IMG/VR virus record: IMGVR_UViG_3300028382_000002 | Coordinates: 1 to 30,369 of that record | Strand: one strand, 5' to 3' | Length of the DNA stretch: 30,369 nucleotides | Source of the DNA: a virus | In this document: positions 19,212 to 30,369 of the stretch, piece by piece | How the letters are laid out: each line of letters begins with the position of its first letter | Numbering within the stretch: position 1 is the first letter of the stretch | Notes under the pieces: generated by a model | What the model was told of the DNA's origin: nothing | The model's database searches: none | What the model saw: the letters and a program-made list of their open reading frames with translations, nothing else | Program-made: the position numbers and the translations under genes

Positions 19212-20227
19212 TGTTCTGCCTCTCCTGAACGGTCTGTCTTTCCAAGTTCGACGATAATTGGGTCACCTTCAATATCCACATCAGCCGTCACACCAGCCTG
19301 CGTTGACGCAGGTGGGTTTGGCACAATCACCCGCGCAACCGCTGTGGCAGTCACGGAGATGCTGACCTGGGACCCTGCAACTGTACGCGACCGTCGTGGT
19401 GCAGTGTCACTGCGACCCCCATGCCTGGCCTGAAAGACAGGCACATGTGTCCGATCAACTGCCGTTTGGGCACTGTCTGTCTCCACAGCCACCGTGCCAA
19501 TGGCCTGTGCCCGCACGGGCGTTATCTCAGAAACACTTGTGTCAATCACCTGCGTGCCCACCGCCTGTGCACGCACAAAGGCTGTCTGTCCAATGTTCGT
19601 GTCCACTGCCGTGGTGCCGACAGTCTGTGCCCGCGCAGGAGCCGTCTGTACAGGAGCCGTTTCAGTAATGCCTGTATCAACACTGCCAGTGCTGATAACA
19701 AAGCTCTGTTTAAACGCTGTCTCTGCAGTCGTCGTGTCCACGGTTGTGGTGCCGACAGTCTGTGTTCGCGCAGGAGCCGTCTGGCCTGCGTCCGTGTCCA
19801 CGGTCGTAGTAATAACAGTCTGTGTTCGCGCAGGCCCCGTCTGCCCAGTCTGTCTTCGCGCAGGCGACGTGTCAGCAACCCCCGTTGCTACAACAGTTGC
19901 AGTAAGATTCTTTGTCCGATCTGTCGTCGTCGCACCAACTGTAGTATCACGACCACTGAAGCCAAGCGTGTTATCCAGCACCGCCGATACGGTATCAGTC
20001 GTGGGGGTTGACTCGCCCACCGAATTGAAGGCCGTGACAGCATACGTATAGTCACCTGTTGCTACGCCCGTGTCAGTGAACGACGTAACGCTATCCCCGA
20101 CAGACGCCATCTTCGTATAATCAGTCGGAAACGACGGACTGCTCGTTGCCGACCGATACACGCGCTGACCATCAACATTACTCGTCCCTGTCGGAGACAG
20201 GCTCCACGACAGTTGTACATCAGGCAT
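19208..20227 (-). CDS. FN3 domain plus 20-residue repeat fibre protein
   Basis: The protein has 339 aa and starts MPDVQLSWSLSPTGTSNVDG. Residues 1-85 form a fibronectin type III domain (GQRVYRSATSS, GDYTYAVTAFNSVGESTPTT), though its first strand lies at the end of the preceding Kelch gene. Residues about 115-265 are seven imperfect 20-residue repeats of the type QTAPARTQTVGTTTVDTDAG, likely a beta fibre shaft, and a C-terminal beta domain follows. The start codon overlaps the Kelch stop (TAATG), so the two are probably translated together or joined by a shift. It likely forms a surface fibre. Confidence 0.75.
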   Translation of the reverse strand: MPDVQLSWSLSPTGTSNVDGQRVYRSATSSPSFPTDYTKMASVGDSVTSFTDTGVATGDYTYAVTAFNSVGESTPTTDTVSAVLDNTLGFSGRDTTVGATTTDRTKNLTATVVATGVADTSPARRQTGQTGPARTQTVITTTVDTDAGQTAPARTQTVGTTTVDTTTAETAFKQSFVISTGSVDTGITETAPVQTAPARAQTVGTTAVDTNIGQTAFVRAQAVGTQVIDTSVSEITPVRAQAIGTVAVETDSAQTAVDRTHVPVFQARHGGRSDTAPRRSRTVAGSQVSISVTATAVARVIVPNPPASTQAGVTADVDIEGDPIIVELGKTDRSGEAEQ

Positions 20228-20787
20228 TACTGAACCTCAGCAATCAGGTTACTTGGTGGCTCAGGTGGCGAGGGTGCGCTGAACTTTACCGTTGCCAGAT
20301 CATCGCCCCCGCCAACCGCATAGATGTTATCATCTGAGTCAGATACCGCGCCGAATTTCCTTCGTCCTGTCGGCATATCAGGGAGACTACTCCACGATGA
20401 CCCATCCCACTTCTCTACCGTTGACTTACCACTGTATCCGCCAAGCACATAGATATTATCATCTGAGTCGGATGTAGCCGCCACAGCATTTCGTCCTGTC
20501 GGCATATCGGGCAGACTACTCCACGATGAGCCATCCCACTTCTCTACCGTTGCCATGGCACGGGGTCCCCCAAGCACATAGATATTATCATTTGAGTCAG
20601 ATGCCGCCGCCACCTCAGTTCGTCCTGTCGGCATATCAGGGAGGCTACTCCACGATGACCCATCCCACTTCTCTGCCGTTGCCAGATCAGCGCCTCCGCC
20701 AATCGCATAGATATTATCATCTGAGTCAATTGCGACCCCCAAGCCATCTCGTGGTGTCGGCAGACCAGGGAGACTGCTCCACGGCAT
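20227..20787 (-). CDS. Kelch-repeat protein
   Basis: The protein has 186 aa and starts MPWSSLPGLPTPRDG. It holds four 43-residue Kelch repeats, each with the core DSDDNIYAIGGG or similar and the linker EKWDGSSWSSLPDMPTGR. Four blades are fewer than the five to seven of a closed propeller, so it may be partial, oligomerise, or be shortened. The C-terminus (PSPPEPPSNLIAEVQ) is the opening strand of an FN3 domain that continues in the next gene. Kelch domains bind proteins or sugars, so a receptor-binding appendage is likely. The copies are almost identical at DNA level. Confidence 0.8.
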   Translation of the reverse strand: MPWSSLPGLPTPRDGLGVAIDSDDNIYAIGGGADLATAEKWDGSSWSSLPDMPTGRTEVAAASDSNDNIYVLGGPRAMATVEKWDGSSWSSLPDMPTGRNAVAATSDSDDNIYVLGGYSGKSTVEKWDGSSWSSLPDMPTGRRKFGAVSDSDDNIYAVGGGDDLATVKFSAPSPPEPPSNLIAEVQ

Positions 20788-22565: not shown

Positions 22566-23494
22566 TCACTCCGAGGACGGGTCCTCACTGGCCGTGGACT
22601 GGCCCTGTTCCATCCCACCGCCATTCTGCCCAACACGCGGGTTGCCACCAATGTCGCTCAGTGAGCCATCTGACGCACCGAGGATATTGTACAACCGTTC
22701 AAACTCATCATCCTCCAAGATGCCGCTCAAGTCCACATCTGTCCACTCAGCCCACTGTTCCTGCAAAAACGACCGTGCCTCTGCATCCGACATGACGAAG
22801 TTGGTCTGTGCCTGCGACACCAACTGGACGTGCCGTGCCATTGCCTCCGCACGGTCCAGTTCAGACAACTTGAACAGTGGCCCCCACTCAAGTTCCAACC
22901 CACTGTTCAGGTCATAATCATTTGCGTCGTAGTCGCTGTACCAGTTCACCAAGTCGCGTAGTTCACTCTCATAGCGATTCCGACGCAGGCGTTCAATCTT
23001 GTTGAAGTAGTTTTTAATGTCAACCTCAGACCCGCTGACCGTGCCAGCCTGCGTGCCGAACAGCACACTGCGCGTCATCTCCGTGGCCGCACAGATTTGG
23101 TCGAACAGCACCGAGTATGATGGCTCAACCTCGTTTTGCTGAATCTTCTCAATCGAACGCACCTCGAATCCAGGCGGCTCCATGATCGAGGACTTGGTGT
23201 TGATATTGTGCATCTGCTGTTCGGCCTCATCCACTTTGGCCTCGTCAGTGCCTTCATCATAGCTGACGACGTGCAACGGAGCCGAGTGCCTGAACAACGA
23301 CTGCATGGTTGCCCAGTTGCCCTTCATCATCGACCGTAGCAAGTGGATAATCGGCATGAGGACCGAATCACCCTCGTAGCCACCCCAGGTGCGGTCGCCC
23401 ACGTCGCCATCCACATCACCGCGCCACGTAATGTGAAACACACGCTGTGGGTGAATCATCAACGGCTGGAACTCCGCCCCACGGTCGTATCAGT
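22566..23494 (-). CDS. Portal protein, C-terminal half (DUF1073-like)
   Basis: This frame is open from about 23491 to 22566. Its first in-frame ATG is at 23462, where it overlaps the stop of the N-terminal half (TGATG). The residues before that ATG (DRGAEFQPLMIHPQRVFHIT) are already portal-like, which argues that the true protein is joined to the upstream half. The rest is typical of DUF1073 portals: the helical stem (LFDQICAATEMTRSVLFGTQ), GSEVDIKNYFNKIERLRRN and a helical C-terminus. As a dodecamer it would form the DNA channel at one capsid vertex. Confidence 0.8.
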
Positions 23495-24181
23495 GTCGTC
23501 ACGCGGCAGGCGTGTGTCCTCCACACTGTCCGTGTTCAGGTTCGGGTTGGCCTCCTCAGCCCGCTGTATCAAGTCACCCAATGCCGTCACCGCTTCCGTG
23601 CTCGATACGGACTGCCCCGCATCGGGGTCCATGATGTTCTGCGCGTTGCCCGCCGTCAACTTCTCCTCGAACGCAATCGGCTTGCGGTTCGTGAGGTCGT
23701 CGATGGTCAACACCTTCACTTCGTGAATCCCATCGACATTTTCAGGCGGCTCCCACTCACTGCCCGTGTCGCGCAGTCTGAACCACAGCAATGCAAACCC
23801 ATCACGCCGTGCGTTTCGATGGGCCTTGCGATAAGTGTCCTCAATGTCCTGCAAAAACTGTTGGGTGTCATCGGCAGTGTCCACCGCCGAATACCCATGC
23901 TTGAACGCATCATCAACAGGCCGATCAACAATCGTGGACGCCAACGCCCCGTTGCGATAAAACCAGCGTATGTCGTCAATCGAGGGCGTCCGAAACAGCC
24001 GCTTGGGGTCCACGTCGTCGGCAGTTGCGTCGTCGCCCTCAGAACCATACACACTCCGCACACCGTTCTGCTCACTGCCAACACTTGTCGGCGTCAGATA
24101 CTCCGCGTCGAGGTTGAACCCCGTGTACGATGAGGCGTGCCCCAAACCGTCATCCGCGTCCTCGCCATCCATGTCACTCAT
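23459..24181 (-). CDS. Portal protein, N-terminal half (DUF1073-like)
   Basis: The protein has 240 aa and starts MSDMDGEDADDGLGHASSY. It contains the portal signature WFYRNGALASTIVDRPVDDA near residues 73-92, followed by FKHGYSAV, and ARRDGFALLWFRLRD, as in DUF1073 portals. It ends GRSSSR then TGA, 1 base before the ATG of the second half. Together the halves give about 540 aa, the normal portal length. A -1 shift on the four-G run at 23477-23480 would join them. A single missing base in the sequence would look the same. Confidence 0.8.
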   Translation of the reverse strand: MSDMDGEDADDGLGHASSYTGFNLDAEYLTPTSVGSEQNGVRSVYGSEGDDATADDVDPKRLFRTPSIDDIRWFYRNGALASTIVDRPVDDAFKHGYSAVDTADDTQQFLQDIEDTYRKAHRNARRDGFALLWFRLRDTGSEWEPPENVDGIHEVKVLTIDDLTNRKPIAFEEKLTAGNAQNIMDPDAGQSVSSTEAVTALGDLIQRAEEANPNLNTDSVEDTRLPRDDTDTTVGRSSSR

Positions 24182-28559: not shown

Positions 28560-28627
28560 TGGCCGAACGGCTGTGTTGGCCGAACGGCTGTGTTGGCCGA
28601 ACGGCTGTGTTGGCCGAACGGCTGTGT
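28560..28627. repeat. Four tandem copies of a 17-bp repeat
   Basis: The unit TGGCCGAACGGCTGTGT repeats exactly four times with no spacer (28560, 28577, 28594, 28611), and a partial fifth copy follows. Each unit contains the near-palindrome GCCGAACGGC. Such arrays usually bind an initiator or regulator. Confidence 0.9.
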
Positions 28628-28757
28628 TGGCTCCCCGCTGTCGCGCATGGTGTCTGCTTGTTGCACACCCCACACTGGAAGCCCTCCCTATGCCACGTGG
28701 GTGGGCAAAGAGGTGTCCAATCTCGACGGGGCCATGTACACACATGGACACCAGCAC

Positions 28758-28815
28758 ACAGATATGTACATTGATGTAGTGGACAGATACGTACACCTCC
28801 GTACAGATATGTACA
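28758..28815. repeat. Three copies of a 13-bp iteron
   Basis: ACAGATATGTACA occurs at 28758 and 28803, with a one-base variant (ACAGATACGTACA) at 28783. Each contains the palindromic core GTAC. The spacings are 25 and 20 bases. They look like protein-binding sites within the control region. Confidence 0.7.
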
Positions 28816-28841
28816 CTCAAAGGCCCGTGCCTGGGGCTTGT

Positions 28842-28879
28842 GTGCCGTCAGCAGGTCCGTGTGCCGTCAGCAGGTCCGT
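28842..28879. repeat. Tandem 19-bp repeat
   Basis: GTGCCGTCAGCAGGTCCGT occurs twice head to tail without a spacer at 28842-28860 and 28861-28879. Two copies alone could be a chance duplication, but it lies among other repeat families. Confidence 0.8.
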
Positions 28880-28956
28880 GTGTGCACGTGCGAGACAAGC
28901 ACCCCGTATCGAGCATGGGGCTGTCGACACCGCATATAGTTGTCTAATTGACATAC

Positions 28957-29051
28957 ACCTGTACACAGACACCTGTAGCCACCCGCACACCTGTAACCAG
29001 TCACCTGTAGCCAGTCACCTGTAGCCAGTCACCTGTATCCAGATACCTGTA
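28957..29051. repeat. Array of seven ACCTGTA iterons, mostly 14 bp apart
   Basis: The core ACCTGTA occurs at 28957, 28971, 28989, 29003, 29017, 29031 and 29045, with spacings of 14, 18, 14, 14, 14 and 14. In the middle copies the unit is ACCTGTAGCCAGTC. Regular spacing suggests cooperative binding by one protein. The adjoining AT-rich stretch supports an origin-like role. Confidence 0.85.
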
Positions 29052-29184
29052 GCCACCCGCGTAAGATACGGTCAGCCATGACGAGAGGGGTGTGCGTCGA
29101 GAGACACAGATATAACTCACATGTATGCTGTTCTGTATGCACATAACTTGTGTGTATGGACTTGTGTGGATATCGGACAAAAGT

Positions 29185-29192
29185 CTTAATAC
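29185..29192 (+). promoter_or_regulatory. Rightward promoter-like element
   Basis: CTTAATAC, preceded by GGACAAAAGT, resembles a haloarchaeal TATA box with its upstream element. A start about 25 bases on would fall near 29213-29217, at the beginning of the structured region. No other promoter-like sequence stands out before it on this strand in the last 100 bases. Confidence 0.45.
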
Positions 29193-29572
29193 AGATGCAC
29201 CCTTCTGTAGATATGCGTTTGATGAGGATCGCACCCCTGGGATTTGCCCATCAAGGCCCTAAGATGCTTTCTGATGTAAGCTGCCTCCCACTGGGTTAGT
29301 AGGTGTGATGTTTGCCAATAGACGGGTGGACTAAATCATCAAAAGTCCCAGTGATAGGGGCAAGTCAGTGAGACTTTAGCCACAATGACGGAAGAAGTAA
29401 AGCGTGCGTGAGAGACAAAAAGTTGAGGCCTGAGATAAGGCCTGCCCGTTAGTTCTGACAGACCAAGGCACAGAACTTTCCCGTTAAGTTGGACAATAGA
29501 CGCAACCGCCTAAGTGGTGTGGAAGTCAATCCTGGCTATTCCCAAGGATCGTTATTCTGCTGTCCTATGACC

Positions 29573-29657
29573 GAGAGAGCAAGGGCAGTGTTCCAGCACT
29601 CTCATCGAGAGAGCAAGGGCAGTGTTCCAGCACTCTCATCGAGAGAGCAAGGGCAGT
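29573..29657 (+). repeat. 34-bp tandem repeat within the structured region (2.5 copies)
   Basis: The unit beginning GAGAGAGCAAGGGCAGTGTT occupies 29573-29606 and 29607-29640 without differences, and its first 17 bases recur at 29641-29657. Each full copy can form a hairpin (AGTG/CACT, extended by GAG/CTC with a bulge). A CTGTCC at 29560-29565 can pair with the GGGCAG of any copy. Confidence 0.9.
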
Positions 29658-30002
29658 AGGATACATACACCTCTATGTGATGGATCGGGAGTGATCCTAA
29701 TCATAGACGTATCTCGAAGGGCCGATACTCGCCACGCTTATTGCATAGGCCTAACACTGATAGCAAAGGCCAATAACTGCAGTAAGAGTAATCTCCTGAA
29801 GACTGAAATCTCTCACGCAGTGAAAGACTGCCTGGTGAAACACCTGACCTATGTCTGAGACGTAACGTACTGAAACGCAATAGGTAAGGGGAGTTAAGTA
29901 GGTGATCAAGGTTAATTCAACAAACCGCATAGATAAATGGCAGTGAGACACAGAATCAGGGACACACGCCCATTATGAGATACGACAGGGAAACTAACTT
30001 AT

Positions 30003-30046
30003 CCTGGTGTGTCCCCAACACCCGACAGGTGAGGGGCACAACCAGG
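30003..30046 (+). promoter_or_regulatory. Long hairpin covering a ribosome binding site
   Basis: CCTGGT-GTG-CCCC at 30003-30016 pairs with GGGG-CAC-ACCAGG at 30033-30046 (13 bp, with single-base bulges), and the apex adds CACC/GGTG (4 bp). The 3' arm contains part of AGGTG (30044-30048), which is 9 bases before ATG 30058. If that frame is real the hairpin would block its translation until opened. Confidence 0.65.
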
Positions 30047-30057
30047 TGTAACAACCC

Positions 30058-30369
30058 ATGCAAGAAGAACCAGATATGCAGGTTATCAACCTGCGTGTGG
30101 CGGTTGAAGAAGCGTACAAAATGGGATATGAAGACGGTTTCGAGGATACCGAAGAACCGCTTATAGGTCTCTCCCATTTCAAAGAGAACAAGTCATGGAC
30201 CCTTAACACTCGACAGACCCTAATGGCTTTGTCGGGTATGTCACGAGATGACCATACTGGTCTACACAACGGACATAGTGACGTTGGGGTTATCTGTGAC
30301 GGTTATGACAGTCGGGATACGCCGATCCCGATAAACGTCATGGATACCCGACATACGTATGACATAGTC
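30058..30369 (+). CDS. Possible CDS, open to the right edge (partial)
   Basis: From ATG 30058 (MQEEPDMQVINLRVAVEEAY) the frame is open for 104 codons to the edge. AGGTG at 30044-30048 gives a good ribosome binding site at 9 bases, and KMGYEDGFEDTEEP is protein-like and acidic. However, hairpins at 30078-30094, 30119-30179, 30209-30236, 30236-30257 and 30312-30331 continue through it, and the later residues (KSWTLNTRQTLMALSGMSRD) are less convincing. It may be a real gene, a peptide inside a structured RNA, or chance. No family is recognised. Confidence 0.35.
   Translation, partial: MQEEPDMQVINLRVAVEEAYKMGYEDGFEDTEEPLIGLSHFKENKSWTLNTRQTLMALSGMSRDDHTGLHNGHSDVGVICDGYDSRDTPIPINVMDTRHTYDIV

Follow-up and report, generated by a model that had tools for sequence, protein, structure and literature searches.

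What does the long non-coding stretch at the right end of this halovirus contig encode? The window, by which we mean the whole 30,369-bp IMG/VR contig (IMGVR_UViG_3300028382_000002; the complete record, classed as linear and likely a fragment), carries a leftward structural operon of myovirus type with TerL, a split-looking portal, protease, sheath and baseplate J. Its TerL is 63–71% identical to those of the IMG/VR contigs L003, L004 and L007 (63% for L004) and 36% identical to that of Haloarcula tailed virus 2; blastn against phage and plasmid records gave no relevant match, and genome contigs searched by TerL and by the motif described below yielded none or chance matches. Two adjacent frames at 22566–24181 share portal homology, each matching phrog_146, and a Kelch-repeat protein lies within the operon at 20227–20787. 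The non-coding stretch points rightward, beyond a repeat-rich region in which three short direct-repeat arrays (17, 19 and 14/28 nt; 28560–29055), possibly an origin or control region, separate it from the operon. No tRNA or tmRNA genes were found in the window, and no tRNA genes within the available sequence of the window, L003 and L004.

The initial annotation took 29200–30369 to be gene-free and to hold a structured RNA of at least 1.15 kb in a haloarchaeal virus. From about 29200 to 30057 only short overlapping frames occur, the longest of 78 aa, and none is plausibly coding. Beyond this point lies an open 104-aa frame, whose protein has no relatives among the viral contigs searched, so the gene-free RNA ends near 29985–30057 rather than at 30369, which leaves about 770–840 nt. 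Folding outperformed shuffled controls: for 29216–30057, the plus strand gave z = −5.3, with none of 20 shuffles as good, and the minus strand z = −1.6. By part, the RNA strand gave z = −3.4 for 29216–29755 and z = +0.7 for 29755–29990, but the P4 and P2 helices of the latter would be pseudoknotted and thus invisible to a folding test. Folding and synteny with L004 support the large structured non-coding RNA of a haloarchaeal tailed virus that had been proposed, at about 29200–30057.

The rightward promoter-like element reported at the start of this RNA was borne out (Table 1). L004 has an equivalent box, TTTATG at 2279, 29 nt before TGCG, in a geometry like that of the window, and the box would be an archaeal promoter. 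The hairpin at the start reads UUGAUG..GGG/CCC..CAUCAA in the window and CGGUCG..GGG/CCC..CGACCG in L004, with different outer pairs. No Rfam family matched the 5′ domain, and primary-sequence similarity between the 5′ domains of the window and L004 was not above that of shuffles. The tandem repeat arms noted earlier were recovered by TRF; they make the surroundings of the proposed helix 29565–29570/29701–29706 repeat-rich, so that some of the arms are tandem copies. An internal duplication relating the 5′ and 3′ domains was unsupported on sequence comparison, and a P1 pairing between the two termini of the full transcript (GCGU/ACGC) was set aside, with just 4 bp in two sequences.

The identity of the 3′ domain emerged from comparison with L004, a second halovirus contig that has a syntenic non-coding stretch on the same strand (about 2265–1118). 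Only one block could be aligned between the two, CGCAUAGAUAAAUGG...UGAGACACAGAAUC, identical at 31 of 34 positions, and it carries UAGAUAAAUG-N10-ACAGAA at the exact spacing of RNase P RNA. RNase P, an RNA enzyme, trims tRNAs; its RNA is usually regarded as a cellular housekeeping gene. The diagnostic UAGAURAAUG, 10-nt spacer and ACAGAA were found at 29930–29955 in the window and at 1172–1147 in L004. Covariance model R2 (see below) placed CR-I/P4 of L004 on GAGGUAACCUCGGGA, whose last seven bases (CUCGGGA) pair with UCCCGAG right after ACAGAA; none of 200 shuffles gave as good a P4 pairing, by a score designed after inspection. The other candidate helices of L004 are P2 (AAUCC/GGAUU), P5 (ACCC/GGGU), P7 (GGAC/GUCC), P8, P9 and an 8-bp P10 with CR-II ACAGA, together with a hairpin before CR-IV (CGUGGC..GCCACG) and a P1 candidate, GAGCC/GGCUC (1506–1502/1134–1130). 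The P7–P10 cruciform is already present in the unconstrained MFE fold. After the RNA, at 200–1050 of L004, a hairpin of the CCACTGG..CCAGTGG type stands shortly before the ATG of small genes. The window and L004 provide the only two haloviral copies: L003 ends too near the RNA start to help, and HATV-2 and HGTV-1 gave no match to model R1 in a search that is low-powered for haloviral copies.

In the window, the signature CAUAGAUAAAUG-N10-ACAGAAUC lies within a 3′ part of about 230 bases (29770–29985). The initial annotation had recognised no RNase P signature, a statement that no longer holds, since the CR-IV/V motif, P4 and a candidate P2 occur in the expected order. P4 joins CR-I, with a bulged nucleotide, to the strand after ACAGAA; in the window (UC[U]CCUGA/UCAGGGA, 3′ strand at 29956–29962, bulged U) it was equalled in 2 of 200 shuffles when 250 nt were searched and in 17 of 200 when 800 nt were searched, and is weaker than in L004. 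The P2 pairings, ACUGC/GCAGU in the window and AAUCC(CGC)/GGAUU in L004, are 5 bp each and could be at chance level; a second ACUGC at 29827 offers an alternative 5′ strand. Compared with the GAGGAAAGUCC-like consensus, CR-I is close in L004 (GAGGUAAC) and degenerate in the window (GAGUAAUC; GAGUAA). Inside the window P7 lie P8 (29817–29831), P9 (29834–29844) and P10 (29847–29852/29880–29885), in the order seen in L004, with P8 and P9 present in the MFE fold, and a CR-III-like AGGUAAGGGGAG at 29882–29893. The S-domain arrangement of P7 around P8, P9 and P10 with CR-II/CR-III thus appears in L004 as MFE topology plus ACAGA, and in the window as a plausible topology without a clear CR-II; P3 also has no clear form in the window. 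The region of GAUCAAGG and its hairpin was aligned by cmscan to the GCAAG stretch of archaeal RNase P. Earlier placements of P4 at 29834–29848 and CR-I at 29338 were dropped for 29786–29799. L004 shows what would be a full RNase P core fold, and the window what appears to be a reduced, weaker version. The window alone is suggestive; the RNase P case rests on the window and L004 together.

Table 1 Coordinates of the putative RNA and its surroundings in the window
Feature	Position	Strand	Basis or remark
TATA-like box TTAATA	29186–29191	+	Sequence; 28 nt before TGCG at 29214
5′ structured domain, without known family	29214–29755	+	Fold z −3.4 (window), −2.9 (L004)
34-nt hairpin unit, 2.5 tandem copies, inside 5′ domain	29572–29657	+	TRF
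Candidate P2 5′ strand ACUGC	29776–29780	+	Pairs with GCAGU 29940–29944; register as in phage class
CR-I-like GAGUAAUCUCCUGA with P4 5′ strand	29786–29799	+	Placed by covariance models R1/R2
S-domain cruciform, P7 CUCUC 29810–29814 / GGGAG 29889–29893	29810–29893	+	Labels inferred
GAUCAAGG, then hairpin GGUU..AACC (P15/P18-like), directly before CR-IV	29904–29926	+	Sequence
CR-IV/CR-V signature CAUAGAUAAAUG-N10-ACAGAAUC	29928–29957	+	31/34 identity to L004; motif retrieves RNase P-like RNAs
ORF, 104 aa, acidic, runs off contig	30058–30369	+	Outside the RNA

The sole Rfam match in 29150–30060 was to RNaseP_arch (29820–29969; 12.7 bits, E 0.31), short of the 84-bit gathering threshold, which is a detection cut-off and not a biological definition, and which phage members at E 1e-14 miss too. 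L004 gave no Rfam RNase P match. Apart from this weak match, GOLLD, ROOL and all other Rfam families were without a match in the window at gathering or relaxed E-values. Model R2, built from 22 phage RNAs with the window and L004 left out, gave 54.9 and 46.1 bits to genuine bacterial RNase P, 29.5 to L004 and 24.9 to the window. About 35 loci in which the 3′ pattern occurs by chance peaked at 21.3 bits, which leaves the window a margin of 3.6 bits. Because the phage set was picked by the motif of the window and L004, the 3′ part of the R2 score is circular. The chance-locus controls answer much of this circularity, but the margin of the window is small; the Rfam models that score four phage loci as RNase P are independent of the window.

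The phage RNAs were gathered by scanning IMG/VR with TAGATAAATG-N10-ACAGAA, which returned 59 stretches. About 20 are non-coding, often among tRNA genes, and most others lie inside reading frames; about 35 coding loci are chance matches, kept as controls, and the match in L006 is also due to chance. Two loci, L023 and L051, are ordinary bacterial RNase P above the Rfam cut-off. About ten further members came from a scan with TAGATGAATG, which brings the total to some 30 RNase P-like RNAs of viruses, most of them from large phages rich in tRNA genes (L019, L027, L029, L033–L035, L038, L039, L041, L042, L044, L047, L048, L053, L056, L058, L060, L067, L071–L074, L085, L087, L091, L099, L101, L103, L112, L117, L120 and L121). 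tmRNA genes share contigs with RNase P RNA in L033 (1261–1644, minus strand) and L051 (9797–10131, minus strand). Members also occur in huge phages of 634 and 735 kb (LR745206, LR756501) and in the cultured T4-like Stenotrophomonas phage DLP6 (KU682439.2, 105814–106007), where the RNA lies in an unannotated gap inside a tRNA cluster. The phage members share GAGGAAGUUCGCGAC (CR-I), a bulged P4, P2, P5, an S-domain helix and P15/P16, with strong covariation in P2, bulged P4, P5 and P15. Among ten phage RNAs, 94.1% of pair cells are standard (69.2% in shuffles), same-pair double changes number 81 cells against 26.7 in shuffles, and 25 of the 33 pairs changed on both sides; when partner strands were slid as a control, pairing fell to 32–42%. 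With a relaxed threshold, the Rfam RNase P models found four of seven loci, at E 2.9e-14 (DLP6), 3.6e-10, 1.9e-8 and 3.6e-7, all below the cut-off. About 30 viral contigs thus carry RNase P-like RNAs, and those tested are mostly missed by Rfam cut-offs.

We consider it likely that the window encodes a highly divergent viral RNase P RNA that makes up the 3′ part of a longer transcript. A rightward transcript would start near 29214 and comprise the 5′ structured domain followed by the RNase P RNA (about 29770–29985), which would fold with P4 and the universal CR-IV/CR-V strand at its centre and form a complex with archaeal RNase P proteins of the host. During infection, the complex would cleave the 5′ leaders of pre-tRNAs, either those of the host or viral ones from genes elsewhere in the genome; the position of phage RNAs inside tRNA arrays fits such a role. 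We infer that one RNA spans both domains, that it is expressed and catalytic, and that these are its substrates. A more ambitious version is tentative and, on balance, doubtful: an archaeal virus's own RNase P ribozyme would form the 3′-terminal part of a giant ornate RNA with a 5′ domain of novel fold, scaffold-like domain and tRNA-processing catalyst in one RNA, and viral RNase P RNAs would be widespread but largely overlooked in phages and in at least one archaeal virus lineage.

Several other readings bear on parts of this proposal. The fusion, rather than the RNase P assignment, is challenged by the possibility that one or two promoters drive two distinct RNAs, first an independent 5′ RNA comparable in spirit to GOLLD/ROOL and then an RNase P RNA standing alone. 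The 5′ domain folds independently, the RNase P RNAs of phages lack a domain of this kind, and the possible P1 of L004 would close the RNase P part alone, suggesting a self-contained 3′ RNA; yet the conserved promoter geometry occurs only before the 5′ domain, and no clear TATA box lies upstream of the 3′ one, which suggests one transcript. We lean only slightly against separate RNAs. The proposed pre-tRNA cleavage has its main rival in a decoy for host proteins, in which a reduced descendant of RNase P that has lost catalysis would capture RNase P proteins or tRNAs of the host, or give the 5′ domain a handle for binding proteins. The degenerate CR-I, the lack of a clear P3 or CR-II in the reduced window copy and the absence of tRNA genes nearby would fit this reading, but L004 retains the full set of core elements and the catalytic parts, ACAGAA and CR-IV, are the best conserved, so we regard it as unlikely.

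That an unrelated giant RNA resembles RNase P through CAUAGAUAAAUG...ACAGAAUC by coincidence is improbable. The Rfam score is weak, the covariance-model margin over chance loci is small and the window helices were chosen post hoc; against this, the sole block conserved between two viruses contains some 15 specified bases with the spacing exactly kept, CR-I/P4 is found in L004, and the P7–P10 cruciform arises in the unconstrained fold of L004. Hardest to credit is a DNA element, such as an origin or packaging site with hairpins acting as DNA: the repeat arrays just upstream (28560–29055) are compatible with it, but the folding advantage is strand-biased and the motif matches RNase P RNAs.

In the open literature, we found no report of a virus-encoded RNase P RNA, and the DLP6 paper makes no mention of one; subscription papers and most preprints lay outside this search, and priority is not established. 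If the preferred reading, a viral RNase P RNA, is correct, viruses would bring their own tRNA 5′-processing enzyme, which could explain how large phage tRNA arrays mature after host takeover, and they would supply minimal RNase P RNAs of natural origin to study; the 5′ domain may in addition be a new large RNA fold. The phage half is directly testable in the cultured phage DLP6. The sequence comparisons suggest that copies of the ancient RNase P ribozyme are encoded in the genomes of many viruses.

Of the systems already described, RNase P RNA (Rfam CL00002: RNaseP_bact_a RF00010, RNaseP_arch RF00373) shares with the haloviral RNAs CR-IV UAGAURAAUG and CR-V ACAGAA at exact spacing, the P4 partner after ACAGAA, a candidate P2 strand after AAUG and, in L004, the P7-P8-P9-P10 order and CR-II ACAGA. 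Unlike it, the haloviral RNAs fall below Rfam cut-offs, the window has a degenerate CR-I and a minimal S-domain, and the copy belongs to an archaeal virus, as the 3′ part of an apparently larger transcript. Standard models also miss, or give low scores to, the reduced, minimal RNase P RNA of Pyrobaculum (Lai et al. 2010, as cited in PMC4919922) and the diverged ones of CPR (PMC8172020), but these are cellular rather than viral genes. The phage RNase P-like RNAs (DLP6; LR745206, LR756501; L029, L034, L042, L121) share GCAUAGAUAAAUG-N10-ACAGAAUC, P4 and the P2 register with the haloviral ones; they differ in being compact (180–300 nt), with a GAGGAAG CR-I and no giant 5′ domain, and many lie in bacterial-phage tRNA arrays. 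GOLLD and ROOL are likewise large structured viral RNAs, and GOLLD also combines a conserved 3′ with a variable 5′ region (PMC12286853), whereas the window matches neither in Rfam and has an RNase P-like 3′ domain. The unrelated archaeal-virus counterpart of GOLLD/ROOL first envisaged is borne out only in part: the structured 5′ domain is of no known family, but the 3′ domain is not a new fold. A giant ornate RNA can be upheld only in fusion with, or transcribed together with, an RNase P-like domain.
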